Below, one piece after another: positions 1,846 to 52,646 of a stretch of 64,000 nucleotides of DNA. A program made the translations under genes and the position numbers. Below the pieces are notes generated by a model that did not search any database, was not told the DNA's origin, and worked only from the letters and a program-made list of their open reading frames with translations. The stretch is from Vigna angularis. Taxonomy: Eukaryota; Streptophyta; Magnoliopsida; Fabales; Fabaceae. Position 1 is the stretch's first letter; the number at the start of each line of letters is the position of its first letter. The stretch lies in the NCBI RefSeq assembly GCF_016808095.1, contig NC_068979.1, forward strand, positions 12,756,001-12,820,000, written 5' to 3'.

Positions 1846-1930
1846 TGATTTGAGAACATTAATTTCTTTGAATTTATTTATTTTGGTGATGTAATTTGAA
1901 ACTTTGGAATATTATTATATTTGGGTTTAT

Positions 1931-2030: not shown

Positions 2031-2041
2031 CTGGAGGATTT

Positions 2042-5531: not shown

Positions 5532-5557
5532 GATAGCATCTACTAATGGATGCTATC
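5532..5557 (+). other. 9-bp-stem hairpin just after ORF3 stop (E1)
   Basis: GATAGCATC - TACTAATG - GATGCTATC, a perfect 9-bp stem with an 8-nt loop, 11 nt after the TGA at 5518-5520. E4 has the same hairpin at the same distance with the loop-closing pair changed from C-G to T-A. Confidence 0.85.
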
Positions 5558-10290: not shown

Positions 10291-11546
10291 ATGCAGGATT
10301 CAATTCGTACTAGGAGCAAGAGAATTTCGGAACCTCTTCTTGAAGGATTGGACGAGAGTAGAAGGAGGAGGAGAATTTGAACATCTAGAGAATTATTTCC
10401 TTCTCCGGAGACACTTTTACAACCCTCACCAGAAAGGTTTGACCAGAGTACTAAAGAGATGGCTGGAGAAAATAATGGTAGACGTACTCTGGCGGATGAC
10501 ACCACTGTTGTTGGCCCTCATCACTTTAACAACATTGCTAGGTCGATGGTCAATGCTGCAAACATGGAGGTGAAACCGGCGTTGATACAATTGGTGAAGA
10601 GCAACAAATTTAATGGACTGTCACATGAAAGTTCATATGGGCATCTAACCACATTCAACGAGATTTGCAACACTGTGAAGATCAATGGTGTGCCGAATGA
10701 CGCTATAAAGCTTAGTTTGTTTCCTTTCTCATTGAGAGGGAATGCTAAGCTATGGTTGAATTCTTTCCCGGAGGATAGCTTTACTGAATGGGAAGTCGTG
10801 GTTTAAAGTTTCTAAACAAGTACTTCCCACAGTCTAAAATCAACAAAGGAAAGCAAGAAATTTCCTCTTTCAGGCAAGGTATGGAGGAAACGCTAGGTCA
10901 AGCATGGGATAAATACAAGAGCTTGTTGAGAAAGACGCCCACTCATGACTTTGATGAAGCAACAATAGTCATTCTTTTTCTTGGAGGTCTTCGTTCACAA
11001 ACCAAATTGATGCTAGATGCTTCAGTTGGAGATAATATCAAGTGTAAAACTCCAGAGGAAGCTTTTGAATTGATAGACAACATGGCTACTAATGACAACG
11101 AGATGCATAATGAAAGAGGAGCTTCACCTCAACAGAAGGGAGTCCTTCAATTGCAATCTCAAGATGCCTTGCTTGCACAAAATAAAATTATCACTCAACA
11201 GTGGGAAGAAGTGACGAAGAAACTTTCTCTATTGCCACAAGAGATACAAAATGCTTTAATGGTTCAGTGGCAGCAACAAAGATGGCAACAACAACCTACT
11301 CTATCTAAGAAAACCACAAAGCTTGAGGAAACTTTCCAGCAATTCATGAAGATGAGTGTATCTTATTGTAAGAATGTGGAGGTTGCATTTAAAAGTATGA
11401 AAATTCATATTGGGCAATTGGTCAACAAGATGGAGATTTTTGAGAGGAATGCAAAAAGTAATCTTAGGGAAGAGTATAAGACCATTGTTACTAGAAGTGG
11501 TAGAGTTAGATTAGAGAAAAATAGAGAGAAAATAGAAAGAAAATGA
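10291..11546 (+). pseudogene. gag of E3
   Basis: Starts MQDSIRTRSKRISEP at 10291; an in-frame TGA at 10378-10380 interrupts, then reading resumes through MAGENNGRRTLADD (10459). A frameshift near 10800 moves to the frame containing FLNKYFPQSK and ETLGQAWDKYKSLL. The retrotransposon gag core spans roughly 10560-11080. The Q-rich tail lacks the zinc knuckle seen in E1; the equivalent segment is shortened. The frame ends at 11546 in the K/E-rich linker. Confidence 0.85.
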
Positions 11547-12537
11547 GAGTGAGAGAGAAACACTTGAGTGGAAAGAGAGGATTGAGAGAGAAAAAAAGAA
11601 AGAAGAGGTAGATGAGAGAAAAAAAGAAAAAGATGTTGAAAAACCACTTCCTTATCCAAAGATCTATTCAAGGAAGGAGAAAAAAAATAGCTTGAGCGGT
11701 TCATGGAGATATTTAAGAAACTGGAGATTACTATACCTTTCTCTGAAGCATTGCAACAGATGCCGTCATATGCAAAATTTTTGAAGGAGCTCCTTACAAA
11801 GAAAAGAAAATATATTGAGAAGGAGACCATTGAAGTGCAAGGTAATTGTAGTGCAATCATACAAAAATTACCTCCTAAGTTTAAAGATCCAGGAAGCTTA
11901 ACTATTCTGTGTACCATCGAAGAATTGGAAGTTGGAAGAACATTGATTGATTTGGGAGCTAGCATTAATTTAATGCCGCTTGCTATGTTCAAAAGAATTG
12001 AAGGTTTGGAACTCAAACCTACTAGAATGACACTCCAATTGGCGGACATGTCTCTTAAATACCGATACGGGGTGGTTGGAGATGTACTGATGAAGGTAGC
12101 AAATTTGTATTTCTAGTGGATTTTGTCATAATGGAGATGGAAGAGAATGGAGATGTGCCTCTCATCCTTAGGCGACCATTTATGAAGACTGCTAGAGTTT
12201 TAATTGATGTGAAGAATGACAAGCTTAAAGTAAGAGTTCAAGATGAAGAAGTGAATTTTGATGTATTCAAAGCCATGACACATCCTAAAGATGATAAAGC
12301 ATGTTCCAATTTGATATACTTGATGAAGTTTATATGGTGCAAGAAAGGATGGTACATTGTTCTTCTCCGTTAGAGAAAACTCTTATTGATGCCTGTGAAG
12401 ACTTGAATGAAGAGGAAGAAAAATTAATTGATGAGTGTATAATGGATTTGGAGACATTGAAGGAGATCCTAGTGGAGGAGCTAATTTTGAGATTATTGAT
12501 ATCAAATAAAGAAGTCAACGAAAAAAAGTTGGAGTGA
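11547..12537 (+). pseudogene. Linker and aspartic protease of E3
   Basis: 11547-11702 is a purine-rich linker with a frame break. From 11703 the sequence MEIFKKLEITIPFSEALQQM leads to KDPGSLTILCTIEELEVG and the protease motif DLGASINLMP (about 11949-11978). TAG at 12114-12116 precedes the block MDFVIMEMEENGDVPLILRR, where LGRPF has become LRRPF. A frameshift near 12300 enters an acidic stretch ending at 12537. Function when intact: processing of Gag-Pol. Confidence 0.8.
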
Positions 12538-12540
12538 AAG

Positions 12541-13474
12541 ATGTTACCACCACATTTGAAGTATGTTTTCTTAGGAGAAGATGGAACTAAGCCAGTCATC
12601 ATTAGTAATTCTTTGCTTCCTGAAGAAGAAGAAAGGTTGGTGGAAATATGGAAAACCAACAAAGAAGCTATTGGGTGGTCAATCTCAGATCTCAAGGGTA
12701 TAAGTCCAAGTTACTGCATGCATAAAATAGTTATGGAGGATGACTATAGACCAAGTTCTCAACCACAGAGAAGGTTAAATCCAGTGATGAAGGAGGTGGT
12801 TAGAAAAGAAGTATTGAAGCTTCTAGAAGCTGGCATTATATATCTGATCTCTGATAGTGAATGAGTGAGTCCAGTACAGGTAGTGCCAAAGAAAGGTGGG
12901 ATGACATTAATCTATAATGAGAAGAATGAGCTTATTCCTACTCGGACTATTATTGGATGACGAATGTGCATTGATTATAGGAAGTTAAATAAGGCCACTA
13001 GGAAGGATCATTTTCCCCTTCCTTTTAAGGATCAGATGTTGGAAAGATTGGCAGGTCAGGCTTTTTATTGCTTCCTAGATGGATATTCTGGATACAATCA
13101 AATTGTGGTAGATCCAAAAGACCAGGAGAAGACAACATTTACGTGTCCATTTGGTGTATTTGCTTACAGAAAGATGTCATTTGGGTTATGTAATGCTCCA
13201 GCTGCGTTTCAAAGGTGTATGCAGGCAATTTTTGCGGATCTCATAGAGAAGTGTATTGAAGTCTTCATGGATGATTTTTCGGTGTTTGGAGATTCTTTTC
13301 AAAGGTGTTTGGTGAATCTGGATATTTTCCTCAAGAGATGTGTTCAAACGAATCTTGTGCTTAACTGGGAGAAATATCATTTCATGGTAACAGAAGGAAT
13401 TGTGTTAGGTCACAAGATTTCTGCTAGGGGGATTGAAGTGGATAAAGCCAAAGTAGAGTTCATTGAGAAACTTC
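12541..13474 (+). pseudogene. Reverse transcriptase of E3 (first part)
   Basis: Begins MLPPHLKYVFLGED; key blocks are VVPKKGGMT, MCIDYRKLNKATRKDHFPLP, FLDGYSGYNQI, FGLCNAPAAFQRCM and the catalytic FMDDFSVFG (near 13268). Two TGG-to-TGA type stops occur at 12862-12864 and 12958-12960. The frame is cut after VEFIEKL by solo LTR 13475-14913 and resumes at 14914. Confidence 0.9.
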
Positions 13475-14913
13475 TGATAACAGTTGAAAAACTGTTATTT
13501 TTATACTTAAAATTGACTTCAATTACAACCTTTATGTCTTAGAAATTAGCTTGAACTCATGATTTTGTTTTAGTTTTTTTAATAAGAGAGTTGAAGGTGA
13601 ATTTAATGGTTTTGTGCTAGATTCCCTCGATTTTGTAGGCTAATTAAATGGTTTGAAAGAAGAGTTGAAGTACCGAATGATTGGAATGCAGAAAAGTCAA
13701 CCAGAAACCAAAAAAGTCAACCAGAAAAGTCAACCAGTCAACCAGAATGCAGAAAGTCAACCAGAGTGTAGAAAAAGTTGCGACCGAGTGGCGCTGAGCG
13801 GTAATTTCCGCTGAGCGCCAGTTTTCAGGTGCCGAAATCATCGTTGAGGGGCAAAAACAACAGCTGAGGGGCAAAATTGAAGACCCGCACTTACCGGTGA
13901 GCGGCGTTTTTATGGGCCTTGGGCCACTTTTCTGTAATTTTTATGGGTTTGGACCTGGTTCCTGTTATTTTTATGTTCTATTTAAGGACTTGTATGTCCT
14001 AGGGATTGTATCTTTGGCTGGGACGAAACACAAACACACTTTTCACCCCTTGGGGGTAGAATTGGAGATGGTGACAACTCTCCTCTTCTCTTTCTCGGGT
14101 TTTTCTATCTCTTCCATTCTTTCATTCCATTGTTCATCTAGTTCTTCCATGATGATGGAGAACTAAACTTATTTTGTTGTTGGGAATCATTGTAAATCCT
14201 TATAAACTCTCTTGTATGGAATTTGTTCTTCAAGATCATTTTTATGATACATGCTTTCTTTCATTAATAGTTAGGGTTTTTCCTCTTTGCTCAAAGCATG
14301 CATTATTTAACTCATTCGATGTCATGATTATTGGTTTTGTCGATATGGACACATACGAGGAAATCTAGATCTAGGGAATCTCTCCCAACAGTATATTACA
14401 AACCTAGACATAAGAGTATGATAGTCGGTTGCCTTTAAGCTTCTATTCACTATAATGCATGATTAATTGCTAGGGAGACAAGACATTGTAAACTAGTGGT
14501 TATGATTAGGCTTTCTTCGCCGAGACATCGGGTTTAAAGTAATTTAGAAAGTGACATTAACATTAATGAAAAGAATGATGAATTCCTGAATACAAGAGAG
14601 TGGATAGGATGAAATTGATAAACCCAACAACATATTCATCCATATATTTCAATTCACGTGTTTTGTTTCTTCTTGCCCATTGATCATCACATGCATATAT
14701 ATTTACTTTTCAGTCTTTTGCATTTGAAACTTACAACAAATTGTGCACAAGTCTTAATTAATCAATAAATCACATAACTGTCTAGGTCGTGAGTCCTTTG
14801 CGAGAACGATACTTGGTCTTACCAGGTTTATTACTTGATACGATTCGGTTACACTTGCCGAAGGGTTAACAAGTTTTTGACTCCGTTTTTGAGGATTGAA
14901 AATTTGTTCATCA
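13475..14913 (+). mobile_element. Solo LTR, extended-end type, in E3 RT
   Basis: 1439 bp starting TGATAACAG and ending TTCATCA, flanked by ACTTC at 13470-13474 and 14914-14918. Removing it restores the RT frame (EKLPPPTNVKG), so the borders are firm. The usual LTR end GTTAACA occurs at 14865-14871, but the insertion runs 42 bp further through a PBS-like TGACTCCGTTTTTGAGGA (14878-14895) to AAATTTGTTCATCA. The PBS-like part therefore belongs to this LTR. Confidence 0.9.
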
Positions 14914-15510
14914 ACTTCCACCACCAACAAATGTGAAGGGAATTAGAAGTTTTTTAGGCCATGCTGGGTTTTATAGAAGATTTATTAAAGACTTCTCAAA
15001 GATTGCCAAATCATTGAGTAATTTGCTGGTTAAAGATGTACCTTTTGTGATGAATGAAGAATGTTTAAAAGCTTTTGACATCTTGAAAAGAAAATTGATC
15101 TCGGCCCTAGCGATTGTAGCCGCAGATTGGAATCGAAATTTTGAATTGATGTGTGATGCTAGTGATTATGCAATAGGTGTTGTGCTGGGTTAGACAAAAG
15201 AGAAAGTATTTCATACTATCTATTATGCTAGCAAGGTTTTGAATGAAGCTCAATTGAATTATGCCACCACAGAAAAAGAATTTCTTGCTATTGTGTATGC
15301 TTTGGAGAAGTTTAGACCTTATCTCATTGTTCTAAAGTGATCATCTACAGAGATCATGCAACTATAAAGTATTTGCTAAGCAAGCCGGATTCTAAGCCGC
15401 GAATGATTAGATGGTTTCTTTTACTACAAGAGTTTGATGTGGAAATCTGTGACAAGAAGGGAAGTGAAAATGTAATAGCTGATCACTTATCTAGGTTGGT
15501 TAACAGTTAA
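14914..15510 (+). pseudogene. RT connection and RNase H of E3
   Basis: PPPTNVKGIRSFLGHAGFYR continues the RT. RNase H blocks follow: FELMCDASDYAIGVVLG (15147 on), TAG at 15192-15194 (a Gln codon in relatives), [20 protein letters not shown], a frameshift near 15335, then [16 protein letters not shown] and [12 protein letters not shown] at 15508-15510 ends the block. Confidence 0.85.
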
Positions 15511-16806
15511 GTTACAAGCAATGAAGCTGAAATATGGGAATCTTTCTCAGATGAAACACTCATGTATATCCAACAAAGGCCGTGGTTTGCTGATATGGCT
15601 AATTTCAAAGCTGTAGGAGTAATTCCAGAAGATCTTAATTGGCAACAAAGAAAAAAAATTTTACATGATGCCAAGCAGTTTATTTGGGATGATCCATACT
15701 TGTTCAAGATTGGAGCTAATAACCTTCTGAGGCTGTGTGTGACAAATGAAGAAGTAGAAGGAATTCTCTGGCACTGTCATGATTCACCTTATGGGGGACA
15801 TTTTAATGGAGAAAGAACAACAACAAAAGTTCTCCATTCAAGATTTTATTGGCCTACCATATTTAAAGATGCTCATAATCATGCCAGAAATTGTGATAAA
15901 TGTCAAAGGACTGGGGCTATTTCAAGACATTATGAGATGCCATTACAAGGCATTTTAGAGGTTGAAGTCTTTGATTGCTGGGGTGTTGATTTTGTGGGAC
16001 CCTTTCCACCATCTTTCAACAATGAATACATATTGGTGGCAGTGGATTATGTGAGTAAATGGGTGGAAGCTCTCGCTTGTCCCAAGAATGATGCTAGCTC
16101 TGTGATTAAATTTCTGAAGAGGCAAGTTTTTTCACGCTTTGGAACTCCAAGAGTACTTATTAATGATGGAGGATCTCATTTTTGTAACTTTCAGCTTGCA
16201 AAAGTACTCAAACATTATGGTGTGAGACATAAGGTGGCTGCACCTTATCTTCCACAGACAAATGGGCAAGCTGAGGTGTCTAACAGGGAGATAAAGAGGA
16301 TTTTGGAGAAAATAGTTGCTTCGTCAAGAAAGGATTGGTCATAGAAACTGGATGATGCTCTCTGGGCATATAGGACGACAATGAAGACATCTATGGGTTT
16401 ATCACCTTTTGAGCTAGTCTATGGGAAAGCATGTCATTTGCCAGTGGAGATTGAGCATAAAGCTTTGTGGGCTCTAAAATTTTTGAATTTTGATCCCTCA
16501 GATACTCAAAATAAACGCAGAAGGCAGATATTGGAGCTTGAAGAGATGCGGTTGCATGCATATGATTCATCCATGAATTACAAAGAAAAGGTAAAATTCT
16601 ATCATGACAAGAAGTTGATAAAAAGAGTTTTTAATCCAGGGCAGCAGGTGTTGTTGTTCAATTCACGTTTGAAGTTGTTTCCATGGAAGTTGAAGTCAAA
16701 GTGGTCAAGACTGTCCATAGTGAAGGAAGTGTGTCCTCATGGAGCAATTGAATTAATAGATCCAGCTGCTAGTGATCCACAGAGAAGTTGGGTAGTGAAT
16801 GGTTAA
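15511..16806 (+). pseudogene. Integrase of E3
   Basis: Zinc-binding HHCC region with [36 protein letters not shown]. Catalytic core: first D in [11 protein letters not shown], second in [12 protein letters not shown] in [17 protein letters not shown] stop at 16342-16344 follows KDWS, and the frame continues [20 protein letters not shown]. The C-terminal domain has [19 protein letters not shown] and GAIELIDP, with stop at 16804-16806. Apart from the single stop this is the best preserved domain of E3. Confidence 0.9.
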
Positions 16807-16979
16807 TGTCTCAAGCACTATTTGGGAGGAGAAGTGGAATGTCTCTCAACAGTTATGAAGCTGAGGGATCCATGAGCTTATTGGGTCAAGCTAGTGACGT
16901 TAAACAAGCGCTTACCGGAAGGCAATCCAGTTTTCTAAACTTACCTTTATTTTATGAACTTATTTGTTTTAGAATTTTT
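16807..16979 (+). other. E3 post-pol segment with conserved motif (16882-16930)
   Basis: The motif TGGGTCAAGCTAGTGACG...GGCAATCCAG is present once. No hairpin array, no second motif and no ORF3 follow; the 3' LTR begins 50 bp downstream, so a deletion removed the region seen in E1 and E4, or this lineage never had it. A clear PPT is not visible before 16980. Confidence 0.65.
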
Positions 16980-24991: not shown

Positions 24992-26300
24992 CAACCCCAA
25001 ACTTAGAACTTTGCTTGTCCTCAAGCAAAACAAATTGTAACTTACTTTTTCAGAACAATCACCACAATGACTCAACCTTTTTCAAAATCTTTTTCTTCCA
25101 GGACAAGAGATCACTTTTATCAACTCAGCATAAAGATGTCAGTCAAGATATGCAGATGTCTTAATTCAATTAAAATTGCTCATATGTTTCAACAGATGTT
25201 ATTCTTAAGAATGATCAATCAACCAAGTAGAGATGTAATCAGAAATTCAGAGAACTACTCTTCACCAAAGAAAGTGTTTCACTCAAGCACTCAAAAGTGT
25301 ATCACTCAAGCACTCAAAAGTGTATAGTGAGGTGTTGGTGTTTCTTTCATTCTACTATCACAATGTCACACAAATTAATTTTTCCTTTCATTTAACCAAA
25401 ATCAAACATACTCACAAACATGTTTTTATCACAAGGGCTTTTCTTGGCTTGTAACTTGGTTAGGCTAAGAAGAAACATGGTTTTTCAGGAATGCAAAATC
25501 CTTGACTTAAGAGAGATATTTATGAATTTAACAATTACATACAGTTTATCTTTTCAAGAAGATCTTTTCTTATTCCCAACATTTTCCCTTGTAGTGAGCT
25601 TTTCTTTTTATTTTTTATTTTCTTTTGATTTCTTTTTTTTTTCTTTTTCTTTGTGCTCACTGCTTCTTTTTTTAGCAACCCCAAACTTGAACCTTTATCA
25701 ATACCTCACAAATATTCTCAACTCAACTCAAGGTAAAGAATTTAAAACAGGGTTTTCAAAGCATGCTTAAGGCTAAAGGTTCAAAGGATGGAACAAACTG
25801 TTCTCTTTTTATTTGGAAAAATTCATGAGTAGGCAAAAAAAATAAAGGGATAACAAAAGATGGCCTTGATCATATGAAACCTGCAAACAAGTAGTTCAAT
25901 CACAGAAAATTTGGGCAAAATCATTCATGCTTGCAAAGTAATAAAAATTATTCACAACAACTCTAAAGCCCAAAACTCACACAGGTAAACTCTCAAGTCC
26001 TAGAATTCAGAAAAACATCCTGCTCAGTATCTCAATTAAATTTTACATCAAGCACTTGTTTCATACTTTTTGAGCCATCACTTGTATATCAACACATCAT
26101 GCATCATCTCAACATCAATCAATACACTAGAATATCACAAAGCAATACTTATCACAAAACAATCACAATTGAATCAAAGCAGTGAAGTTCATTCAAGCAA
26201 AGTACAATAAATAAAAGAAAAAAATAAAACAAAAGCAAAATACAATCAATCAAAACAATAAAACAAAAATAGAAAAATAAAATAAAAGTTTGTAAAACAC
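24992..26300 (-). other. 3' UTR of EB with two PPT-like motifs
   Basis: Homologous to the post-ORF3 region of E1 and E4; no ORF3 remains. Terminal PPT-like (complement of 24992-25008, TTCTAAGTTTGGGGTTG) abuts the LTR; the second copy is the complement of 25676-25691 (TTCAAGTTTGGGGTTG). Confidence 0.7.
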
Positions 26301-26348
26301 TAGGTTGCCTCCCAGCAAGCGCTTCTTTAACGTCACTAGCTTGACCCA
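26301..26348 (-). other. Conserved Athila motif II (EB)
   Basis: Complement of the motif at 2042-2090; contains GGTTGCCTCCCAGCAAGCGC on the plus strand. It lies on the 3' side of the hairpin array in sense orientation. Confidence 0.8.
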
Positions 26349-26363
26349 GTCTTCATCATCATA

Positions 26364-26542
26364 ACATCCATCAGTAGATGTCTAATCACATAGCATCCAT
26401 CAGTAGATGCTAATATTTCTTATCTTCATTGGTATCCCTCAGTAGACACCAATCTTTCTCATCTTTATCGACATCCATTAGTAGATGCCTAATCACCTAA
26501 CATCCATTAGTAGATGTTGTAGAAGCATCCATCAGTAGATGA
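26364..26542 (-). other. Array of 8-nt-loop hairpins (EB)
   Basis: Six dyads on the plus strand around CATCAGTA-like loops: 26364-26381 (ACATC/GATGT), 26391-26412 (TAGCATC/GATGCTA), 26428-26453 (ATTGGTATC/GACACCAAT, one mismatch), 26470-26489 (decayed), 26499-26518 (AACATC/GATGTT) and 26525-26542 (decayed). Spacing is 20-40 nt. The array ends right beside the ATTAC target site of the composite. Confidence 0.85.
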
Positions 26543-26551
26543 TGTCATTAC

Positions 26552-26861
26552 TGTGACACCCAGGCACTAATGAGGGCGGGGAGTGATCGCCGGTGCAAAA
26601 GGCACGAAGTGCAAGGGGCACAAACAAGGAGCGGCTCCTGGCAAGCTTCTAGTGGAAGGGACACATGGATGAATCGAACATACATCGGAATGAGAGGGAT
26701 CTAGAGAGTGTATAGGTATGGGACTATATAGTTGAAGGATAGCTTAAACAGATTGATTTGGCTACTCATATTACCAAAATGCATTTTCTTTTCGGTAGCC
26801 TAACCAATAAGAACTCTATGGTTAAGCGTGCTTAGCCTAGAGTTATTTAGGGATGGGTGAC
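26552..26861 (+). repeat. 5' Cassandra-type LTR of composite, first segment
   Basis: Begins TGTGACACCCAGGCACTAAT. Nearly the same as the start of 43184-43497. The 5S-like part runs from about 26808 to the E4 border, ending GGGATGGGTGAC, and resumes at 34257. Confidence 0.85.
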
Positions 26862-28169
26862 TGATGGACAAATTTATGATCACCAAAATATGATGTCACA
26901 AACTTGTTTTACAATCGGCAAGTATGACCGAATCGTTTCAAGTAATAAACTCGGTAAGACCAAGTATCGTTCTCCCAAAGGACTCACGGCCCAGTTTAGT
27001 TATGTGATTCGTTGATTAGCTAAGACTTAAGAACAAAATAATTGGATTTTACTATGCAAAAGACGAAAATAAACATGTATGCATGAGGTTGATCAATGGC
27101 AAAAGCAAAAGACAAGCACTTTCAATGAAATATATATATGAATATGTTGTTGGGGTTCAATTTCATCTTATCCACTCTCATATATTTTAGGAATTCAACA
27201 TTCAAATCATCATTGTTAATGCCACTCTCTAAAGTACCTTTCAAAGAAGGCTTCTCCCTAATTACGAGTTCATACAATTCCTAGCATTCCTAATAATTAG
27301 TTCATCAAGTGCAGGAGCTTAACGACAACCAATATAATATTGGGAGAAATTCCCCGGATCTAGACTTCCCCGTACGTTCCCGTATCGACAAAATCAATAA
27401 TCATGCATTGAATGAGTTAAACAAAGCAAGCATTAAGCAAAGAGGAAAAACCTTAACTAATGATGAAAGAAAGCATAAATCTTAGATTAAGATGTAAGCA
27501 CAAATTCCATATATGAGAGCTTCAAAAAATTACATTGATTCCCCAACAAACATACAAGGTTTAGTTCACCATATTCATGGTGAACCTAGATGAACAATAA
27601 TGAAAGAATGAAAGAGATAGAAAAACCCGAGAAAGAGAATAGGAGAGCTGTCACCATCTCCCAATCTACCCCCAAGGGGTGAAGAGAGAGTGTTTGCTTC
27701 GTTTATGCCAAAGATACCTAACCCTAGGAAACCCTAAAGCTTAAATACCATTCGTAAATTACAAAAAGTCAAGCCCAAGCCCATTAAAGTGCCGCTCAGC
27801 GGTAAAATACCGCTCAGCGGTGATTGCGCGTCTCGTTTTCTCCCCTCAGCGGCCATTTTGCCCCTCAGCGGACCTCCCGCAACCTCTTGAGTGCCGCTCA
27901 GCGGTAAAATGCCGCTGAGCGGTGACTTCGACTTCTTCTTTTTGCACTCTTCGATTCCTTTTCTGATTCTATCTCTCTCCTTCTTCACTTCTTTCACTAA
28001 ATTCACCTTAAAACCTGCACAAAAACACTGAAATCAAGCATAAACCTGTCCAGCTCTCTTATTTCTGAAAATATGGATAAAAGTATGATTTCAAGCTAGT
28101 TTCTAAGTCTAAAGGTTGCTTTTAGTATCAATTTTAAGCATGAAAATAACAGTTTTCCAACTGTTATCA
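26862..28169 (-). repeat. 3' LTR of E4
   Basis: 1308 bp. In sense: TGATAACAGTTGG...AAATTTGTCCATCA. CCGCTCAGCGG-type words at 27788-27930. A 90-codon open frame here (27734-28006) only translates these repeats. Confidence 0.93.
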
Positions 28170-29412
28170 CAACCCCAAACTTAGAACTTTGCTTGTCCTC
28201 AAGCAAACAAAATGTAACTCAATCTCCAACCAATTCATATGATGGTTGACTCATTCAAAAATCCTCTTTTTCAAGATAAATAACAACTTCACTCAAACTT
28301 ATGACCAAGAGTTCAATCAAGATGTGCACATGCTTTAGTGTTCACAAAGTCATTTAATTTCCAACAAATGCTATTTTTCATGAATGATCAATCAATTAAG
28401 CATGGATGTTCATGTGCTTATGGACTATTTCCTCACTAGGTAAAGTGTTTCACTCAACACACAAGTGTATAAGAGGTGAGGTGTTTCACTCCTTCACTCT
28501 ATTATCACAATGTCACACGAATCAACTTTGCCTTTCATTTTACCACAATCAAAAACATTCACAAGCATGCATCATCACAAGGACTTTTCAATGGCTTATA
28601 ATGTGGCTGGGCTAACAAGAAAATTGGTTTTTCTGGATCACAAAATCCTTGAGTTAAGAGAATCATAACAACACAATCATCTTATTCATTCTCAACTTTC
28701 TTTTACCTTTGCATTTGCATTGAGCTTTACTTCTTTTTCTTTTCTCTTTGCATATTCTTACTTTTTTTTTTTAGCTCTTAGCTCAATGCTTTTCTTTTCA
28801 TGTTTTCCCAACAACCCCAAACTTGAACATTTAACAATACCATACAAGATCTTCTACTTAACTCAAGGTAAAGATTTTCAATCAAAGGTTTTCAGTGTAT
28901 GTTCAAGGCTAAGGGTTCAAAGGATAGAACACAACGTGTTCTCTTTTAGTAGGCTAACTTTATGAATTTGGCCAATAAAAAGGGTTCCAACAAATGGCCT
29001 TGATCACATGATGCAAAACAAGCAATTGATTCTATCATAGAAAACCTGGGCAAAATCATTCATGCTTTCAAAGTAATAGCATTCAATCATACCAAAAACT
29101 CTGGAGCTCAAAACCTCACATATAAGCTCATTCACATTTGACATACACATCCTGCTTAATCTCACAATCACAATCATGATATCATGCATTTGTTCACAAA
29201 GCTTGTGAATCACCCGTATAAGCATTTTAATGTGCACATCTATCTCAACATCAATCAATCAATAAGCATCATCAAGCAGTACTTATCACACAATCATAGT
29301 TAATAGCAAACCATCATAACAAACCAGGTTTTCAATAGAGTACATCAAACCCTAATCTAAAAACAAAAACAAATAAGTTCAGAAAACTTAAACCACAAAA
29401 GCATAATCATAT
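28170..29412 (-). other. 3' UTR of E4 with two PPT-like motifs
   Basis: No coding frame supported. PPT-like complements at 28170-28186 (adjacent to LTR) and 28812-28827. Sequence matches 5558-6809 of E1. Confidence 0.75.
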
Positions 29413-29438
29413 GATAGCATTCATCAGTAAATGCTATC
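29413..29438 (-). other. 9-bp-stem hairpin just after ORF3 stop (E4)
   Basis: Sense: GATAGCATT - TACTGATG - AATGCTATC, 11 nt after the ORF3 stop. Compared with E1 (5532-5557), the loop-closing C-G pair is T-A here, a compensating change. Confidence 0.85.
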
Positions 29439-29449
29439 TCAGCTCCTCA

Positions 29450-30685
29450 TCAGTCTGAGCTGTCCTCTGTATCTTCCTCTTCCTCCTCATCTTCATCATC
29501 ATCAAATGCATCCTCCTCCTCAGCTTCATCTTCTTCCATCTCTCTAGCTGAAGCTTCAGCTGCTCCAACTCCTCCTCCATGTACTGGATCTTCTGGCCAA
29601 GCTACTACATTGTGGAATTCATCCATAGTCCACCTGTGGGCTGGAGGTGTATCATACATCCCCACTATCATCTCAGCAGTGGCCACCTGCCCTCTGTGAA
29701 TGGACTGCAACTGAGCACCTATAAGAGACATATACATGTCCCTCATCTGAAATGGTTCTGCTTCATGTGTATCAGCAGATGTCTGGCTCTCTGCTGGCCC
29801 TCTTTCTCTACGAGCCCGGCGTGGTGGAACTGGCTGAGCAGCATCCTCACCTCCACAGTACTGTCTATAATAGGCCTCATCAATAGCTTTTCTTGGCCTC
29901 TCAAATGGTGGAACAGAAGTGTCCACCCCAGCTAGCTTGCAAAGGTGAGTGATCAAAGAAGGATGTCCTAGTGGTGCTTTGTTGTTTGAGGTGTTAGCAC
30001 ATACACTAATTTCATCAGCTATCACCTGCCCAATATTAACATTCAAATTTCTGATAGCACAGTAGATGAATAGTGCCCTGCTGAGAGTAATATCTGACAC
30101 ATGTGAACATGGCTGAATGTTGGCATGAGAAAATGCCATCCAATATTTTGCAAGAGGATTCAAATCTATCCTCCTAATGTTAACCACTAAGCCAGATCTA
30201 TTCCTTTGGAAGTGTCCTCCAGGTATACACAACACTCTCTCCACATCCTCAAAATCAGCACCTTCCTCCATGCAAAGAGCAAACTGACATTGCTCACCAG
30301 CCCACACAGTATCCAGGAAGTTGTTGATAGAATCAGGGTCATACCTGATAGCATGGCCTCTGACATAGCCCAAATAATTCTCAGCTGGATAATCACCAAT
30401 CTTCTTTGCATTGGTGTAAAATTCCTTCACCACAGCTATGTTGGCAGGTGCAGGATAAGTGGCTAGCTTTCCCCAATCATTCCCTAACACTTGCTCTCCA
30501 AATTGAGGAGCAAAGTTAGGTATCATTCCAACCTTTCTCTCCATCAGAAGTCTCCTGTCCTGAACCACCCTAAAGTGCTTCTCATGTTTCCTAGAGAGGA
30601 ACCTGCCAGAATGGGGTTGCTCTGGTTCCTTTTCCTTTCTCTTGGTTGCCATGGTTTTCAATCTTTTTCCTGATGAAGATGCCAT
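29450..30685 (-). CDS. ORF3, intact 411-aa protein of E4 (env position, unknown function)
   Basis: Start chosen at MASSSGKRLKTMATKRK (30685), two bases after the likely acceptor; the frame is open 22 codons further upstream, but that part lies in the intron. Basic N-terminus, then a globular middle (about residues 40-270) with NIAVVKEFYTNAK, GHAIRYDPDSINNFLD, HANIQPCSHVSD, GHPSLITHLCKLAG and FERPRKAIDEAYYR. The C-terminal ~35 residues are almost all D/E. There is no signal peptide or membrane helix. It resembles the 'putative plant transposon protein' family (Transposase_32 as I recall it); its biochemical role is not known to me. It is the only long intact frame in the window and the only protein kept by this mobile passenger. 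Confidence 0.8.
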   Translation of the reverse strand: MASSSGKRLKTMATKRKEKEPEQPHSGRFLSRKHEKHFRVVQDRRLLMERKVGMIPNFAPQFGEQVLGNDWGKLATYPAPANIAVVKEFYTNAKKIGDYPAENYLGYVRGHAIRYDPDSINNFLDTVWAGEQCQFALCMEEGADFEDVERVLCIPGGHFQRNRSGLVVNIRRIDLNPLAKYWMAFSHANIQPCSHVSDITLSRALFIYCAIRNLNVNIGQVIADEISVCANTSNNKAPLGHPSLITHLCKLAGVDTSVPPFERPRKAIDEAYYRQYCGGEDAAQPVPPRRARRERGPAESQTSADTHEAEPFQMRDMYMSLIGAQLQSIHRGQVATAEMIVGMYDTPPAHRWTMDEFHNVVAWPEDPVHGGGVGAAEASAREMEEDEAEEEDAFDDDEDEEEEEDTEDSSD

Positions 30686-31553
30686 TCCTACATTCAAAAC
30701 ACAAACAAAACCACATAACATGATGTTAATCATTAGTAAAACACAGAACACAACTCCTTTCGAAGCTAAACCACCGCTGAGGGCCAGAATTTCCCCTCAG
30801 CGCCACCAGTGCCACAGTCCAACACACAAAAACTCAGAACAACCAAATCTGGCAGAGTGCCGCTCAGCGGCAGATTACCCCTCAGCGGTAACTCTGCAGA
30901 TTTTTGAAAAACCTATTTTAAAGCTGTCCTAACTCCACCCAAATGCAATTTTCAGTTTTCCAGTTCATGATCATGCAGTTTAATTGGTTCAAACATCAAA
31001 TATATCATCAAATCATGCATAGAAATCAAAACCCCTAAATATTCATGCTTTGACAATCACATTCAAATTCAAGAACCCTAGAATGAACAAAATGCATTTT
31101 ACTTACTTGGGTGGAGATGCTAGATGCAATGAGAATGCTTCCAAGCTAGAATGCTCTCTTCCAACCCCAAACTTTGATGGCACACTAGTGAAAAAGTGAG
31201 TGGAAGAGATATTTTCTTAAGAGGGAAGAGTGAAAAGATGTGGAAAACCTAGGAGAAGGTGTGTGGAAGTGTTTGTGCAGAGAAAAGCCTGAAAGTATGA
31301 GCAAGTGCGCAGCTTAGGGTTTAAGAATACCCTAATGGGCTCGGGTCCTGCTAAGGGGAACTAAAGCCCAATCTGCGAGAGTACCGCTCAGCGGTAAAAT
31401 ACCGCTCAGCGGCACTTTCGTGATGTGCTCCTCTCCTTCTTTTCTTAACCTACGTGACTTCCCTACATGCCCCTCATGGGTTCCCTGCAATTCAATGTTA
31501 AAAATGCTTATGCAAATCCTAACTAAAATAAACAAACAGAAACAATCAATCAA
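30686..31553 (-). promoter_or_regulatory. ORF3 leader with probable intron (31106-30688), E4
   Basis: Sense: donor CCCAA|GTAAGT (GT at 31106), acceptor TGTAG ending at 30688, 419 nt. Upstream exon part contains an AAGTTTGGGGTTGG motif (complement near 31160-31180). A CCGCTCAGCGG pair lies at about 31383-31411. Layout equals 2345-3013 of E1. Confidence 0.55.
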
Positions 31554-31602
31554 CTGGGTTGCCTCCCAGGTAGCGCTTGTTTAACGTCACGAGCCTGACC
31601 CA
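31554..31602 (-). other. Conserved Athila motif II (E4)
   Basis: Contains CTGGGTTGCCTCCCAG on the plus strand, a perfect 5-bp stem with a 6-nt loop. Follows the hairpin array in sense orientation. Confidence 0.85.
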
Positions 31603-31611
31603 AAATCCACC

Positions 31612-31752
31612 AACACCCATCAGTAGGTGTTTCAAACTTACCAGCACCCATCAGTAGGTGCAAAATTTTCTCACTAACACCCATCATTAGATGTTACAAA
31701 CCTAGTATCCTTCAGTAGATACTTAACCACCTAGCATCCTTCAGTAGATGCT
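31612..31752 (-). other. Array of 8-nt-loop hairpins (E4)
   Basis: Five dyads on the plus strand: 31612-31631 (AACACC/GGTGTT), 31644-31661 (GCACC/GGTGC), 31676-31695 (AACACC/GATGTT, one mismatch), 31704-31723 (AGTATC/GATACT), 31731-31754 (core AGCATC/GATGCT). Loops are CATCAGTA, CATCATTA or CTTCAGTA. Stem positions 2, 4 and 5 from the loop change as pairs. Confidence 0.88.
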
Positions 31753-31834
31753 GGATCCAACACAATATTTACAAGATAATGTCCACAGGTTAAAAATTAT
31801 AAAACTAAAATCAAAATCAAAAGTTTGTCAATCA

Positions 31835-31884
31835 TTGGGTTGCCTCCCAGCAAGCGCTCTTTTAACGTCATTAGCTTGACCCAA
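31835..31884 (-). other. Conserved Athila motif I (E4)
   Basis: Complement of the motif at 1797; in E4 it is joined directly to the gag remnant, so it is read by the end of the gag frame in a shifted phase. Confidence 0.85.
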
Positions 31885-32705
31885 TAAAGTTCAAGTTCCT
31901 TCTTCTTTTTCTTCTTTCTACTGAACTTCTTCAGAAATTTGATCAAACCAGGAACCTGTTGCAGTGTCTCAATCATAGGAACTTTAATCTCCAATTTCTT
32001 GAAGATTTCCATTAAGCACTTAAATTTCTTTTCCTTCCTATGATTCTTCTTTAGATGAGGATGGGATTTTTCATATGATTTCTTCTTCTTTCCTCTCATC
32101 TTCTTTTTCTTCCTTTTTCTCTCCCTAAAATTTCTCTTTTTCCTTTCTTTCATTTTTTTCTTCCCTTTTCTTTTTCTTTTCAACTTCTTTATTTTCACAC
32201 AAATCTTCTTTCTCTCTTCTCTCTCAACCACTTCTTTCTCTTTTTCTTCATCTTTATTTTTCTCACTCAACTCTTCTTTCTCTTTTCTCTCTATCTTTTC
32301 CGCATCTCCCTCTATTTTTTTCTCATCAAGAATCTTGTCACTTTCAGTGACATTGGTTTGCCCTTCTTCCTTAAGGTTAACTTCAGTATTAACCTCATCA
32401 TTCAATCTCTGACTAATGTAACGAAAGTGCATCTCCATCCTTTTACATGATTCTTCAATGCTTTTCTGAGTAGAGTCGGAATTTTTCAAAAATCGTTGAA
32501 GGGTGTCCTCCAAACTTTCTGATAGAGAGGGTTTTCGCTGCCATTGTTGTTGTGGTTGGTTCTCAAATTGTCCAGCAGCTTGCCAAAATTGGCTTTGATC
32601 CATGCTTGAGTGAGGTTCCCACCAGTGGTTGAGATTACTTTGGTAGAATTGAGTGCCCATATAGTTAAATTCTTGACCAAATTGCATTCTGCAGACATTA
32701 GGCAC
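31885..32705 (-). pseudogene. gag remnant of E4
   Basis: First ATG at 32687 (MQFGQEFNYMGTQFYQSNLN). Contains the Q-rich segment, the coiled LEDTLQRFLKNSDSTQKSIE, a very long K/E-rich linker and MEIFKKLEIKVPMIETLQQV, then runs into motif I and ends at 31797. The conserved gag core and zinc knuckle upstream and the whole protease downstream are missing. The 5' deletion border matches that in EB. Whether it is translated is unknown. Confidence 0.7.
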
Positions 32706-32737
32706 AAAACCCTAAAAACAATTGTTAGCACAAAAAG

Positions 32738-32919
32738 ATATAAAAGAAGATATAAGATCAAAGATAAGAAGATAAAAACAGAAAACAGAAAAAATAAAAT
32801 AAAATAAAATAAAAACAGAAAAATAAAATAAAATAAAAACAGAAAAAATAAAAACAGAAATTCAAATTTAAAGTCAAAGATAATCAATAATCACACAAAT
32901 TAACCAGTTAAACCACGAG
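32738..32919 (-). repeat. 5' leader of E4 with TAAAA microsatellite
   Basis: Non-coding stretch between PBS and gag. 32786-32850 consists of imperfect TAAAA/AAAATA pentamers; EB has the same at 44936-45047, and E3 has T-rich TTTATC-type repeats at the same place (10207-10256). Confidence 0.65.
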
Positions 32920-32937
32920 TCCCCGGCAACGGCGCCA
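32920..32937 (-). other. Primer binding site of E4 (tRNA-Asp)
   Basis: Complement reads TGGCGCCGTTGCCGGGGA, an exact 18-nt match to the complement of the tRNA-Asp(GUC) 3' end including CCA, six bases inside the LTR border. Confidence 0.93.
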
Positions 32938-32943
32938 AAAACT

Positions 32944-34251
32944 TGATGGACAAATTTATGATCACCAAAATATGATGTCACAAACTTGTTTTACAATCGG
33001 CAAGTATGACCGAATCGTTTCAAGTAATAAACTCGGTAAGACCAAGTATCGTTCTCCCAAAGGACTCACGGCCCAGTTTAGTTATGTGATTCGTTGATTA
33101 GCTAAGACTTAAGAACAAAATAATTGGATTTTACTATGCAAAAGACGAAAATAAACATGTATGCATGAGGTTGATCAATGGCAAAAGCAAAAGACAAGCA
33201 CTTTCAATGAAATATATATATGAATATGTTGTTGGGGTTCAATTTCATCTTATCCACTCTCATATATTTTAGGAATTCAACATTCAAATCATCATTGTTA
33301 ATGCCACTCTCTAAAGTACCTTTCAAAGAAGGTTTCTCCCTAATTACGAGTTCATACAATTCCTAGCATTCCTAATAATTAGTTCATCAAGTGCAGGAGC
33401 TTAACGACAACCAATATAATATTGGGAGAAATTCCCCGGATCTAGACTTCCCCGTACGTTCCCGTATCGACAAAATCAATAATCATGCATTGAATGAGTT
33501 AAACAAAGCAAGCATTAAGCAAAGAGGAAAAACCCTAACTAATGATGAAAGAAAGCATAAATCTTAGATTAAGATGTAAGCACAAATTCCATATATGAGA
33601 GCTTCAAAAAATTACATTGATTCTCCAACAAACATACAAGGTTTAGTTCACCATATTCATGGTGAACCTAGATGAACAATAATGAAAGAATGAAAGAGAT
33701 AGAAAAACCCGAGAAAGAGAATAGGAGAGCTGTCACCATCTCCCAATCTACCCCCAAGGGGTGAAGAGAGAGTGTTTGCTTCGTTTATGCCAAAGATACC
33801 TAACCCTAGGAAACCCTAAAGCTTAAATACCATTCGTAAATTACAAAAAGTCAAGCCCAAGCCCATTAAAGTGCCGCTCAGCGATAAAATACCGCTCAGC
33901 GGTGACTGCGCGTCTCGTTTTCTCCCCTCAGCGGCCATTTTGCCCCTCAGCGGACCTCCCGCAACCTCTTGAGTGCCGCTCAGCGGTAAAATGCCGCTGA
34001 GCGGTGACTTCGACTTCTTCTTTTTGCACTCTTCGATTCCTTTTCTGATTCTATCTCTCTCCTTCTTCACTTCTTTCACTAAATTCACCTTAAAACCTGC
34101 ACAAAAACACTGAAATCAAGCATAAACCTGTCCAGCTCTCTTATTTCTGAAAATATGGATAAAAGTATGATTTCAAGCTAGTTTCTAAGTCTAAAGGTTG
34201 CTTTTAGTATCAATTTTAAGCATGAAAATAACAGTTTTTCAACTGTTATCA
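32944..34251 (-). repeat. 5' LTR of E4
   Basis: 1308 bp, same length as 26862-28169. Differences seen by eye include aaggTttctc, aaaccCtaac, gattCtccaac, agcgAtaaaa, gtgaCtgcgc and agttttTcaac. Confidence 0.93.
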
Positions 34252-43183: not shown

Positions 43184-43497
43184 TGTGACACCCGGGAACT
43201 GATGAGGGCGGGGAGTGATCGCCGGTGCAAAAGGCACGAAGTGCAAGGGGCACAAACAAGGAGCGGCTCTTGGCAGGCTTCTAGTAGAAGGGACACATGG
43301 ATGAATCGAACATACACCGGAATGAGAGGGATCTAGAGACTGTATAGGTATGGGACTATACAGTTGAAGGATAGCTTAAAGGGATTGATTTGACTACTCA
43401 TATCACCAAAATGCATTTGCTTTTCGGTAGCCTTCGAAAGCCTCGTGGTGATGTGTGGGGGCAGTCAATATTCCCTGTAAGTCGCCGGGGCATTACA
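43184..43497 (+). repeat. 3' Cassandra-type LTR of composite, 5S part deleted
   Basis: TGTGACACCCGGGAACTGAT...GGCATTACA, 314 bp. Matches the 5' LTR except for loss of about 110-130 bp between TTCGGTAGCC and GAAAGCCTCG, which removes the whole 5S-like box. Confidence 0.85.
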
Positions 43498-43639
43498 ATT
43501 ACTACCATCAGAAGCAGCATATAACCTAAAAAAATTCAAACACACATAAACAAAATAAAATCCAAACCACACAACTAAATTAAAAATAAAAAAAATAAAA
43601 AAAAAACAAAATCAGAGATAAAAAAAATTCAGAGACGGG

Positions 43640-49925: not shown

Positions 49926-50154
49926 GATTGTATCCATTTGTACAAATTTTATTTGTATTTAGAGCAATAAGATTGCTATATGTACAGATTGTAACAAACA
50001 ATGATATTATGTACAGATTATTATTGCAATAAGATCATAAATTTCATTATTACTTTATGTTCAATGTTATTTTATTTACGTTGTGTGTGTTTTGATAACA
50101 AAGGAACGCGCAATATTAATAAGTCTTTTAAATTAATCCAATGGTTTACCAACT

Positions 50155-51300
50155 TAAGTAAAATCCTGAAACGTGTCGAGGAAAAAAACACACTTGTAAT
50201 CGTTTACAACTTCTTGGTAAACGATTACACGAACAAAATCTAGGTTTTGTACAGAAAGTTGAACTGTAGGAGCCAGTTGTGGTAACCTAGGTGACCATAG
50301 TAACAAATTTTAATTTTTGGCATAAGTCTAGTGGTTTTCACTTGATTTTGTTGTTTAAGTGTGAATAGAGGCTGAGAAGTCGTGTTTGGGCACCCCATGA
50401 TTGAGGAAAGGAACAATGTTTATGAGATGAGCAACTTGGGTGAAGTCCTGAAACTTGTGCACCAAAACACATACTTGTAATCGTTTACAAGTGCTTGGTA
50501 AACGATTACACGAACAAAATCTGGGTTTTGTACAGAAAATTGAACTATAGGAGCCAGTTGTGGTAACCTAGGTGACCATAGTAAAAAAATTTATTTTTTG
50601 GCATAAGTCCAGTGGTTTTCACTTGATTTTGTTATTTAAGTATGAGTAGAGGCTGGGAAGTCATGTTTGGGCACCCCATGATTGAGGAAAGGAACAATGT
50701 TTATGAGATGAGCTACTTAGGTGAAGTCCTGAAACTTGAGCACCAAAAAACACAATTGTAATCGTTTACAACTTCTTGGTAAACGATTACACGAACAAAA
50801 TATGGGTTTTGTACAGAAAGTTGAATTGCAGGAGGCAACTATGGTAACCTAGGTAACCATAGTAAAAAATTTTAATTTTTTGGCATAACTCTAGTGGTTT
50901 TCACTTGATTTTGTTGTTTAAGTGTGAGTAGAGGTTGGGAAGTCATGTTTGGGCACCCCATGATTGAGGAAAGGAACAATGTTTATGAGATGAGCAACTT
51001 AGGTTAAGTCCTGCAACTTGTGCACCAAAAAACACACTTGTAATCGTTTACAACTTCTTGGTAAACGATTACACGAACAAAATCTAGGTTTTGTACAGAA
51101 AGTTGAACTGTAGGAGCCAGTTGTGGTAACCTAGGTGACCATAGTAAAAAAATTTAATTTTTGGCATAAGTCTAGTGGTTTTCACTTGATTTTGTTGTTT
51201 AAGTGTGAATAGAGGCTCAGAAGTCGTGTTTGGGCACCCCATGATTGAAGAAAGGAACAATGTTTATGAGATGAGCAACTTGGGTGAAGTCCTGAAACTT
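50155..51300 (+). repeat. Tandem 281-bp repeats, left arm of giant inverted repeat
   Basis: About four units with period 281-282 bp. Each contains the dyad TAATCGTTTAC / GTAAACGATTA (starting 50197, 50478, 50759, 51041), GGTAACCTAGGTGACC and TTGGGCACCCCATG. No coding support; open frames here are incidental. Confidence 0.9.
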
Positions 51301-51375
51301 CTTTGGGAACCCACACTCCCTCATGATTTTGCACATAACCAAATGAGCCTATAACTTCAGATCCCATCCTTTTTG
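51301..51375. other. Spacer at the centre of the inverted repeat
   Basis: About 75 bp (CTTTGGGAACCCACACTCCC ...) between GAAGTCCTGAAACTTC and its complement. Confidence 0.75.
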
Positions 51376-52200
51376 GTGCAGAAGTTTCAGGACTTCACCT
51401 AAGTTGTTCATCTAATAAACATTGTTCCTTTTCTCAATCATGGGGTGCCCAAACATGACTTCCCACCCTCTACTCACACTTAAACAACAAAATTGAGTGA
51501 AAACCATTGAATTTATGCCAAAAAATTAACAATTTTGACTATGGTCACCTAGGTTACCACAGTTGGCTCCTACAGTACAAGTTTATGTACAAAACCCCAG
51601 ATTTTGTTCGTGTAATCGTTTACAAAACACTTGTAAACGATTACAAGTGTGTTTTTTTGGTGCACAAGTTTTAGGAGTTCACCTAAGTTGCTCATCTCAT
51701 AAACATTGTTCCTTTCCTCAATCATGGGTGCCCAAACATGACTTCTCAGCCTCTACTCACACTTAAACAACAAAATCGAGTGAAAACCATTGAATTTATG
51801 CCAAAAAATTAAAATTTTTTACTATGGTCACCTAGGTTACCAACTTTGGCTCCTATAGTACAAAACCCAGATTTTGTTCGTGTAATCGTTTACCAAGCAC
51901 TTGTAAACGATTCCAAGTGTGTTTTGTGGTGCACAAGTTTCAGGACTTCACCTAAGTTGCTCATCTGATAAACATTATTCCTTTCCTCAATCATGGAGTG
52001 CCCAAATATGACTTCCCAGTCTCTACTCACACTTAAACACCAAAATCAAGTGAAAACCATTGGATTTATGCCAAGAAATTAAAAATTTTGACTATGGTCA
52101 CCTAGGTTACCACAACTGGCTCCTATAGTACAAGTTTTTGTACAAAACCCAGATTTTGTTCGTTAAATGGTTTACCAAGCACTTGTAAACGATTACAAGT
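51376..52200 (-). repeat. Tandem 281-bp repeats, right arm (inverted)
   Basis: About three units in opposite orientation; dyads at 51613 and 51883, and a decayed one near 52163. With the left arm it could form an RNA or DNA stem of over 800 bp. Confidence 0.88.
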
Positions 52201-52646
52201 GTCTTTTTTGCAGTAGAACCATCACCACTTCTACTAAGTTCATCATGTCACAAGCATCGTTTCATTCATCCATCACAAACATAAATACTCAATCAAAGTG
52301 GCCACTTTATTCATTAACATTCCAAACAAAGCCTCATTTCACATTGACAATAACGAAGGGAATAACATTTCAATTAACATTAACAATATTTAATGGAAGC
52401 AAAGATGCATCTTTTATAACATTGAATAAAATAGGTTACATTACACTCTTTTGTTCATTAAGTACAATGTTGCATAACTTTCTATGAACAAATCATTACA
52501 ATTATCACTCATTTTTTATTGTAAGCACTCCATTTCCAATATACGGAGTGCTAAGCGCTCTACTCTTGTAACGTCTTCGTGATCTGACCCTCACATACGT
52601 CTTCATACGAGGTTGATTGGTGTACATGCCACTCGGGGAAACAAAG
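52201..52646. other. No feature recognised
   Basis: Unique-looking AT-rich DNA between the right arm and the DUF1985-like gene piece. CACTCATTTTTTATTGTAAG at about 52505 and CACATACGTCTTCATACGAG near 52590 belong to no known motif. Confidence 0.4.

Follow-up and report, generated by a model that had tools for sequence, protein, structure and literature searches.

A tandem array of same-loop hairpins with covarying stems in a pol-less retrotransposon of Vigna angularis as a possible RNA docking site

What purpose, if any, could a tandem array of hairpins with a common loop and changing stems serve in a retrotransposon that seems to have no pol gene? The array in question lies in an LTR element of 7,390 bases (E4, 26862-34251, minus strand) within the window, the 64,000-nucleotide stretch of Vigna angularis DNA that was analysed. 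Self-comparison of the window placed the 3' LTR at 26862-28169, and it is 99.54% identical over 1,308 aligned bases to the 5' LTR at 32944-34251 (both on the minus strand). On the minus strand, E4 has no more than two frames that reach 150 amino acids: a gag-type frame (31797-32711), so named from its likeness to neighbouring frames and without a Pfam match, and an ORF in the env position (29450-30796) that matched PF20167 'Putative plant transposon protein' with an E value of 2e-66. Given that neither of these frames is an integrase or a reverse transcriptase (RT), we call E4 pol-less. The order between the LTRs is gag-type frame, hairpin array and PF20167 ORF, and the Pfam match thus places in E4 a PF20167 ORF in the env position, which we take to be the mark of Athila elements. 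This ORF has a long acidic tail and has stayed open although E4 is without pol. Its protein has 360 relatives, at least 120 of which are named Vigna angularis, and the best five, again from Vigna angularis, are 76-95% identical. Elsewhere in the window, an E4-type LTR (83%), solo or nested, lies at 3295-4581 within the ORF region of the left-hand element, and repeated stretches with a likeness of about 78-92% form clusters at 50150-52210 and 61004-62419, the former with direct copies about 280 bases apart plus inverted copies.

The initial annotation had described five hairpins in 140 bp that share a loop or a one-base variant of it. We located all TANTGANG octamers in the window with no stem being required, and this search together with a covariance model of the hairpin recovered all five at 31612-31752 on the minus strand, the sense strand of E4. 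Hairpin 1 (31733-31752) has the stem AGCATC/GATGCT and hairpin 2 (31704-31723) the stem AGTATC/GATACT, both around the loop tactgaag; hairpin 3 (31675-31696) has TAACATC/GGTGTTA, with one T.G pair, around taatgatg; and hairpins 4 (31644-31661) and 5 (31612-31631) have GCACC/GGTGC and AACACC/GGTGTT, respectively, around tactgatg. The stem changes at positions 2, 4 and 5 from the loop, said to be matched on both arms, are indeed matched in these stems. Hairpin 3 is unlike six of the eight family copies, where the stem AACACC/GGTGTT with the loop tactgatg stands instead. Two more minus-strand hairpins with the same loop lie apart from the five of the array and bring the total of E4 to seven: one inside the gag-type frame (TGAGGTTAA.tactgaag.TTAACCTTA, 32372-32397; covariance model E 0.005) and one located 11 bases past the stop of the downstream PF20167 ORF (GATAGCATT.tactgatg.AATGCTATC, 29413-29438). 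The initial annotation of the array mentions neither these two hairpins nor the related arrays and the doubled motif described below.

The sense strand of E4 has eleven TANTRANG octamers, and seven of them are enclosed by a stem of five or more pairs, compared with neither of the two octamers on the antisense strand. Across 300 dinucleotide shuffles of E4, a mean of 0.047 and a maximum of one same-loop hairpin were obtained, in comparison with seven in the real sequence. A count that started from the stem instead (Watson-Crick stems of at least 5 pairs, loops of 4-12) returned five hairpins in the 170 bases around the array, four of them with 8-nt loops, against a shuffle mean of 0.97, and five hairpins were reached in 2 of 1,000 shuffles. 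Neither LTR (26862-28169 and 32944-34251) gave a match to the hairpin model up to E 10. In a ranking of perfect hairpins with stems of at least 7, there were 218 with 8-nt loops versus 123-163 for loops of 3-7, loops of 13-14 being commoner still (308 and 346); TACTGATG came second among the loop strings of this ranking and fell outside the top list once stems of at least 6 were admitted.

The E4 array is bracketed by two copies of a post-pol core motif (GACGTTAAAnnAGCGCTnnnTGGGAGGCA), found by motif search on the minus strand at 31841-31869 (upstream) and 31560-31588 (downstream), for which the genome holds 2,591 exact matches and none to the reversed control. Four more copies at 1811-1839, 2056-2084, 16896-16924 and 26306-26334 make six in the window; the palindrome AGCGCT is present in all six (AAGCGCTT in two) and TGGG.AGGCAA.CCCA in three. 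The motif is doubled around arrays of the E4 family and of the left-end element's family, it is closely repeated in loci L090 and L091, and independently of the hairpins it may serve as a signal of the dimer or packaging type. Between the motifs at 1811-1839 and 2056-2084, the left-end element carries an array of four hairpins (1926-2035, plus strand), and it also has a counterpart of the post-ORF hairpin (GATAGCATC.tactaatg.GATGCTATC, 5532-5557, plus strand) in which stem position 1 is changed on both arms. A third element has an array of six hairpins (26360-26541, minus strand) upstream of the motif at 26306-26334, and a fourth fragment, with its type assigned from neighbouring gag-type frames and a motif remnant, has a single hairpin beside that remnant (stem TGCTGC/GTAGTA, loop ttctgatg; 43497-43522, minus strand, E 0.002). 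The covariance model, which was built from 18 of the 29 distinct stems treated below and two post-ORF hairpins chosen as well formed, gave 19 matches with E below 0.05 in the 64 kb window, all 19 on the sense strand of such elements; these matches are partly by construction, the 43497-43522 fragment being one that was not among the prior input.

Family searches in the genome were then read as top matches and not as a census, with the best 40 of 1,487, 2,037 and 2,131 candidates being scored for the E4 family (F1), the family of the left-end element (F2) and that of the 26360-26541 array (F3), respectively, and with 8 of 40 (F1, L001-L008), 30 of 41 (F2, L009-L038) and 30 of 75 rows (F3, L039-L068) being taken as loci. 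A two-hairpin pattern (GCATCTACTGATGGATGC, 10-40 bases, CTACTGATGG) had 263 exact matches in the genome and none for its control. Fifteen stretches picked for their different spacers among the matches listed ranged from three hairpins (L078) to 14 with a further 4 interlaced (L071), and 20 F1-like arrays taken from motif pairs on one chromosome carried 3-5 hairpins each and differed by whole units. Interlaced hairpins of the form CATC.loop.GATGC.loop.GCATC.loop.GATG, in 13-base steps, occur in L071, L072, L077, L082, L083 and others, where one arm is able to pair to either side. In L078, which belongs to another family, an array of three (330-520 of that stretch) has arisen from the hairpin behind the ORF stop. 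Viral contigs scanned for the core motif and for the hairpin pair gave no match to either.

The strength of folding does not by itself identify the strand at work. The 141-base array had a fold-energy z of -2.9 in the sense and -3.7 in the antisense direction, the corresponding values for 361 bases with both flanking motifs were -0.9 and -5.3, and the sister arrays gave sense values of -5.3 (26290-26560) and -0.9 (1795-2095). Fold energy was thus rejected as proof of sense RNA, given that the antisense strand folds at least as exceptionally. In a 171-base context, the five E4 hairpins reached mean pair probabilities of 0.57-0.97 with their loops open at 0.90-0.99, hairpins 3 and 5 having common arms and competing with each other, and the post-ORF and gag-frame hairpins formed at 1.00 in 70-85 bases. 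Five of the six hairpins of the F3 window copy formed at only 0.03-0.17; of the eleven in L069, five formed at 0.02-0.20 and four at 0.86 or higher. Given that equal arms cross-pair in these many-unit arrays, the folding model offers as an alternative there a rod with facing octamers, and divergence of neighbouring stems would prevent such cross-pairing.

Compensation across many copies was the check by which the initial annotation had proposed to judge its reading, and we carried it out with copies that all came from one genome. The units compared were octamers with at most one mismatch to four loop forms, with T at position 4 and A at position 6 required and with clustering but no stem asked for, which yielded 632 occurrences, 425 distinct 26-mers and 79 of these present in at least two loci; in such loop-chosen hairpin sets the constancy of the loop is by construction, and the pairing of the stems is not. 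Counted from the loop, positions 1-4 were paired in 95-97% of the 79 recurrent 26-mers, positions 5-6 in 78-82% and positions 7-9 in 51-54%. They contain 29 distinct 6+6 stems, in which 104 of 116 pairs at positions 1-4 were formed in comparison with a mean of 70.7 after redealing of the arms (0 of 5,000 redeals reached the observed number). In an alignment of these 29 stems, of which some are not array hairpins and 2 rows were displaced by the aligner and counted as gaps, 86.4% of the cells were paired versus 64.3% in shuffles (0/500) and at most 49% when the arms were slid, 36 cells were double-changed versus 11.3 in shuffles (0/500) and at most 17 when slid, and the covariation score was 0.599 versus 0.233 (0/500). 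Double changes occurred at all six pairs, a measure that taken alone was not above shuffles (98/500).

Thirty aligned F1- and F2-type arrays had 15 double-changed cells versus 4.1 in shuffles (0/500), with a slide of +3 also giving 13; 94.3% of their cells were paired versus 93.0%, four pairs had double changes versus 2.0 (20/500), and further pair types were not above shuffles (362/500). Their consensus fold recovered hairpins 1, 2 and 5 but missed hairpins 3 and 4, and its covariation term was no stronger than -0.53; it also paired the two core-motif copies with each other. The number of double-changed cells was thus reached by no shuffle in either alignment, and the proposal of compensated stems withstood this comparison.

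Clean compensations at one matching place are few, and they concern hairpin 1 and the post-ORF hairpin. The comparison of matched places covered 5 of the 30 F2 loci and 2 of the 8 F1 loci besides the window copies. At hairpin 1, GCATC/GATGC is replaced by ACATC/GATGT in five rows, and L016, whose left flank is the same, has a G-U intermediate. At the post-ORF hairpin, GATAGCATT/AATGCTATC of F1 stands against GATAGCATC/GATGCTATC of F2 (5532-5557), a T-A to C-G change in a region that is 72% identical between the two window elements; the post-ORF stem of L078 is GATAGCATT/AATGCTATC. The alternative stems in hairpins 2, 4 and 5 resemble neighbouring units (AGCATC in L094, ACACC in L107 and L110, and GCACC versus AACACC), and some rows of these hairpins probably align different units. 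Parsimony on a tree made from non-stem columns counted only four double changes from one Watson-Crick pair to another across the five aligned hairpins, and three of the four may have come from one unit replacing another. An apparent compensation in the gag-frame hairpin of L017 was rejected since that hairpin is at another place.

The loops themselves were examined by column. Position-based columns showed loop positions 4 and 6 unchanged in all five hairpins, and 38 of 48 loop changes fell at positions 3, 5 and 7, the other 10 being at positions 1, 2 and 8. Changes per column within F1 and F2 amounted to 1.20 for loops, 1.25 for stems and 1.94 for spacers, and within these families the loop is thus conserved no more than the stems are. 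In a wider set of 191 distinct hairpins, in which loops were allowed at most two mismatches from TACTGATG, 184 had T at loop position 1, 181 had T at position 4, 183 had G or A at position 5 and 188 had A at position 6. Structure together with a loop that hardly varies has good support between units and families; within the aligned arrays this is limited by the small number of double changes found by parsimony. Kissing of the loops in cis was rejected: CATCAGTA, CATCAGT, ATCAGTA and CTTCAGTA are absent from the sense strand of E4, where neither loop form, TACTGATG or TACTGAAG, has its complement in full and where CATCAG and TTCAGTA occur once each.

Whether such hairpins act as RNA or as cruciform DNA had been left as a choice, and G-U and A-C pairs bear on it. 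After removal of two duplicates from 59 arrays, the stem cells of the remaining 57 F1 and F2 arrays comprised 1,245 Watson-Crick, 111 G-U, 11 A-C and 94 other combinations, with 44 of the G-U cells lying at a single outer pair. The 27 F1-like rows, representing the recent family, had 691 Watson-Crick, 29 G-U, no A-C and 23 other cells, all 11 A-C cells lying in F2 copies and being distributed over 10 of them; one F1-like hairpin outside the count (L106), in which two units are seemingly fused, does have an A-C pair. Counted as events by parsimony, changes from Watson-Crick led 15 times to G-U, 10 times to A-C, 18 times to other combinations and 4 times to Watson-Crick, with p 0.42 for G-U versus A-C. 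On our reading, decay after insertion hits G-U and A-C alike, whereas changes inherited through transposition are mostly G-U. Inherited G-U pairs with hardly any A-C thus lean towards sense RNA, and the counted events do not confirm this; RNA is the favoured half of the choice by the standing pairs of the recent family and not by the new changes. Other sets gave a mixed result. G-U exceeded A-C at stem positions 1-4 in the 79 recurrent 26-mers (13 vs 3) and in the 29 distinct stems (7 vs 3), whereas the order was reversed at position 5 of the 26-mers (A-C 11, G-U 7). The 191 distinct hairpins had 90 G-U versus 61 A-C (p 0.02), their copies not being independent; A-C was common at stem position 5 in F3 sites, and it occupied position 4 in 12 of the 22 gag-frame hairpins among those listed.

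We also asked how the hairpins relate to pol. A pol-bearing element of the window (10788-16924), with gag, RT and integrase identified by Pfam, has one core-motif copy and no such hairpin except for a weak match at 12815 (E 0.56). Integrase queries taken from it matched none of the 68 array loci, each with about 1.5 kb upstream, in which RT would be too far upstream to show; among all 91 loci, they matched two (L087 and L088, 73%). In the four loci examined (L003, L012, L013 and L036), a protease-type frame closely precedes the array, as expected after loss of pol; the Pfam match of the L003 frame is weak (E 0.001, below the curated cut-off). No same-loop hairpin was present in eight loci, L087 and L088 included, where the motif is single or closely repeated; the 1.2-1.6 kb covered there extended from about 0.5-0.6 kb ahead of the motif to 0.6-1 kb beyond it, with the gag and post-ORF places outside, and a pol-bearing partner of the E4 family was not found among the loci examined. 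The core motif is thus the more widespread of the two, and every family in which the hairpins were seen looks pol-less.

Several known systems resemble the array in part. The core of the hammerhead ribozyme contains CUGANG-like letters followed by A. The loop letters CUGANG resemble this part of the core of hammerheads and retrozymes, but the next base in most hairpins is the G of the stem, and a hammerhead was rejected with no Rfam match to one up to E 10 on either strand of 31400-32000; the eight Rfam matches up to E 10 in that stretch, two of them to box C/D snoRNA models, lie far below gathering scores and were set aside as chance. Dispersed packaging signals have reportedly emerged from work on STNV. 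In single-stranded RNA viruses such as MS2, the available part of one account describes multiple dispersed signals as several stem-loops per RNA with a common recognition motif in the apical loop (PMC6281560), and at the sequence level E4 has both, namely several stem-loops per RNA and a common loop motif on free stems. The difference is that the present hairpins are mostly tandem, occur in pol-less LTR retrotransposons, have another loop motif and are known from their sequence; the array may work like dispersed packaging signals by analogy, and membership in that class is more than a sequence allows one to claim. Sirevirus RM boxes are likewise palindromic, vary in copy number and form clusters ahead of an ORF in the env position, and as far as the accessible text goes they belong to Ty1/copia elements, have arms with a CGG-CCG core in 12 of 13 elements and also fill the LTRs (PMC2829016). 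Here the arms vary, the loop is kept and the hairpin model finds none in the LTRs, and the RM box was rejected since there is no fixed arm core, double changes being found at all six stem pairs, and since the LTRs are without boxes.

Hypervariable tandem repeats in the 3' UTRs of Tat/Ogre elements resemble the array in that short units, present in differing numbers, occupy noncoding sequence of a Ty3-type element (the accessible text of PMC7004042), and short head-to-tail units of variable number are what the 20 F1-like copies with their 3-5 units show; paired arms with a kept loop are absent from that description, in which neither 'hairpin' nor 'secondary structure' appears in the same portion of text. 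The Mason-Pfizer export element, HIV Rev and CERV of Cer1 provide cases in which a protein of the host or of the element itself picks out retroelement RNA for export, with no tandem octaloop hairpins in the part of the description available (PMC10309623). A full-text literature search, judged by title and start of abstract and with subscription journals mostly outside its reach, returned no paper describing such an array, nor did the accessible parts of PMC2829016, PMC1142308, PMC7004042, PMC10309623 and PMC6281560; a search for the core-motif letters GGGAGGCAACCC returned one unrelated paper only.

A kept loop, changing yet paired stems, several copies along one RNA and multiplication in dependent elements are what would be expected of a binding site read in trans, and we put the chance that the array is a loop-read multivalent RNA docking site somewhat above even. 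At such a site, the sense transcript would fold in units of about 30 nt, each with a stem of about 6 pairs presenting the octaloop UAYURANG, with stem letters free to change while paired and most loop letters not, and a protein, or another RNA in trans, would read the loop, with several copies raising the binding strength. RNA as the working form, a protein as the partner and packaging by a helper's Gag as the function are steps that we infer. That the docking serves packaging in particular is a possibility that we hold with the balance tilted against it. The Gag of a helper element could package pol-less transcripts via the array, and it is the first candidate for the reader because packaging decides the life or death of a pol-less element; an export or stability factor would be the second candidate. 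The three pol-bearing relatives without hairpins near the motif argue against a Gag that is shared with just those relatives. More tentatively still, the array might represent a new class of cis-element, in which pol-less parasites multiply loop-read hairpins as tandem packaging signals to compete for helper Gag, copy number is selected and, as we propose, the stems diverge, which would keep every arm paired within its own hairpin.

The loops could instead be read for another fate of the RNA, such as nuclear export, retention of unspliced RNA or stability, by a host protein or by the PF20167 protein. We find this doubtful, with PF20167 matching only 31 of the 91 loci (all of them F1, F2 or L078), though many stretches were too short to reach it; it does fit the placement of hairpins before and again after the downstream ORF and the openness of that ORF in E4 despite the loss of pol, and the available text of PMC10309623 offers precedents in NXF1 reading the Mason-Pfizer element and CERV serving Cer1. 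It is unlikely, in our judgement, that no selected RNA is involved and that the array is a palindromic tandem repeat, made by slippage or unequal exchange and with its arms matched by template switching in reverse transcription or repair. Whole units are indeed gained and lost, new mutations are symmetric, stems and loops change equally within F1 and F2, equal arms cross-pair and short tandem repeats are, in the portion of PMC7004042 at hand, common in Tat-lineage 3' UTRs; correction of arms nevertheless leaves unexplained the fixed loop positions 4 and 6, as well as the same-loop hairpins far from the array and the 29 G-U versus no A-C cells of the recent family. A feature at the level of DNA, either cruciforms or inverted-repeat sites for a DNA-binding dimer, would accord with arms that are palindromic on both strands and with the A-C pairs common at stem position 5 in F3, but a dimer site would keep its arms, whereas it is the spacer that is kept in these hairpins and the arms that vary, and recurrent G.T pairs (TATT/GATA, GGTGTC/GATACC and GCGTC/GATGC) would be mismatches in a cruciform; we regard it as very improbable. 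Least credible of all is that the loops are decoys for SF1 or U2. The consensus of the branch site is UACURAY with a pyrimidine at the last position, and the letters at loop positions 1, 4, 5 and 6 of the 191 hairpins resemble it; position 7 is a purine in 61 of the 191, however, and one hairpin sits after the last ORF.

The array bears on two questions that, to our knowledge, have few answers so far: by which signals a plant LTR retrotransposon tells its own RNA apart for packaging or export, and by what means pol-less parasites obtain helper proteins. With a defined loop and natural variants ranging from one to more than ten units, the loop-read docking site would make RNA recognition and helper use directly testable. 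If this reading is true, it would give a reason for a noncoding tandem repeat to persist and multiply as the coding genes vanish.
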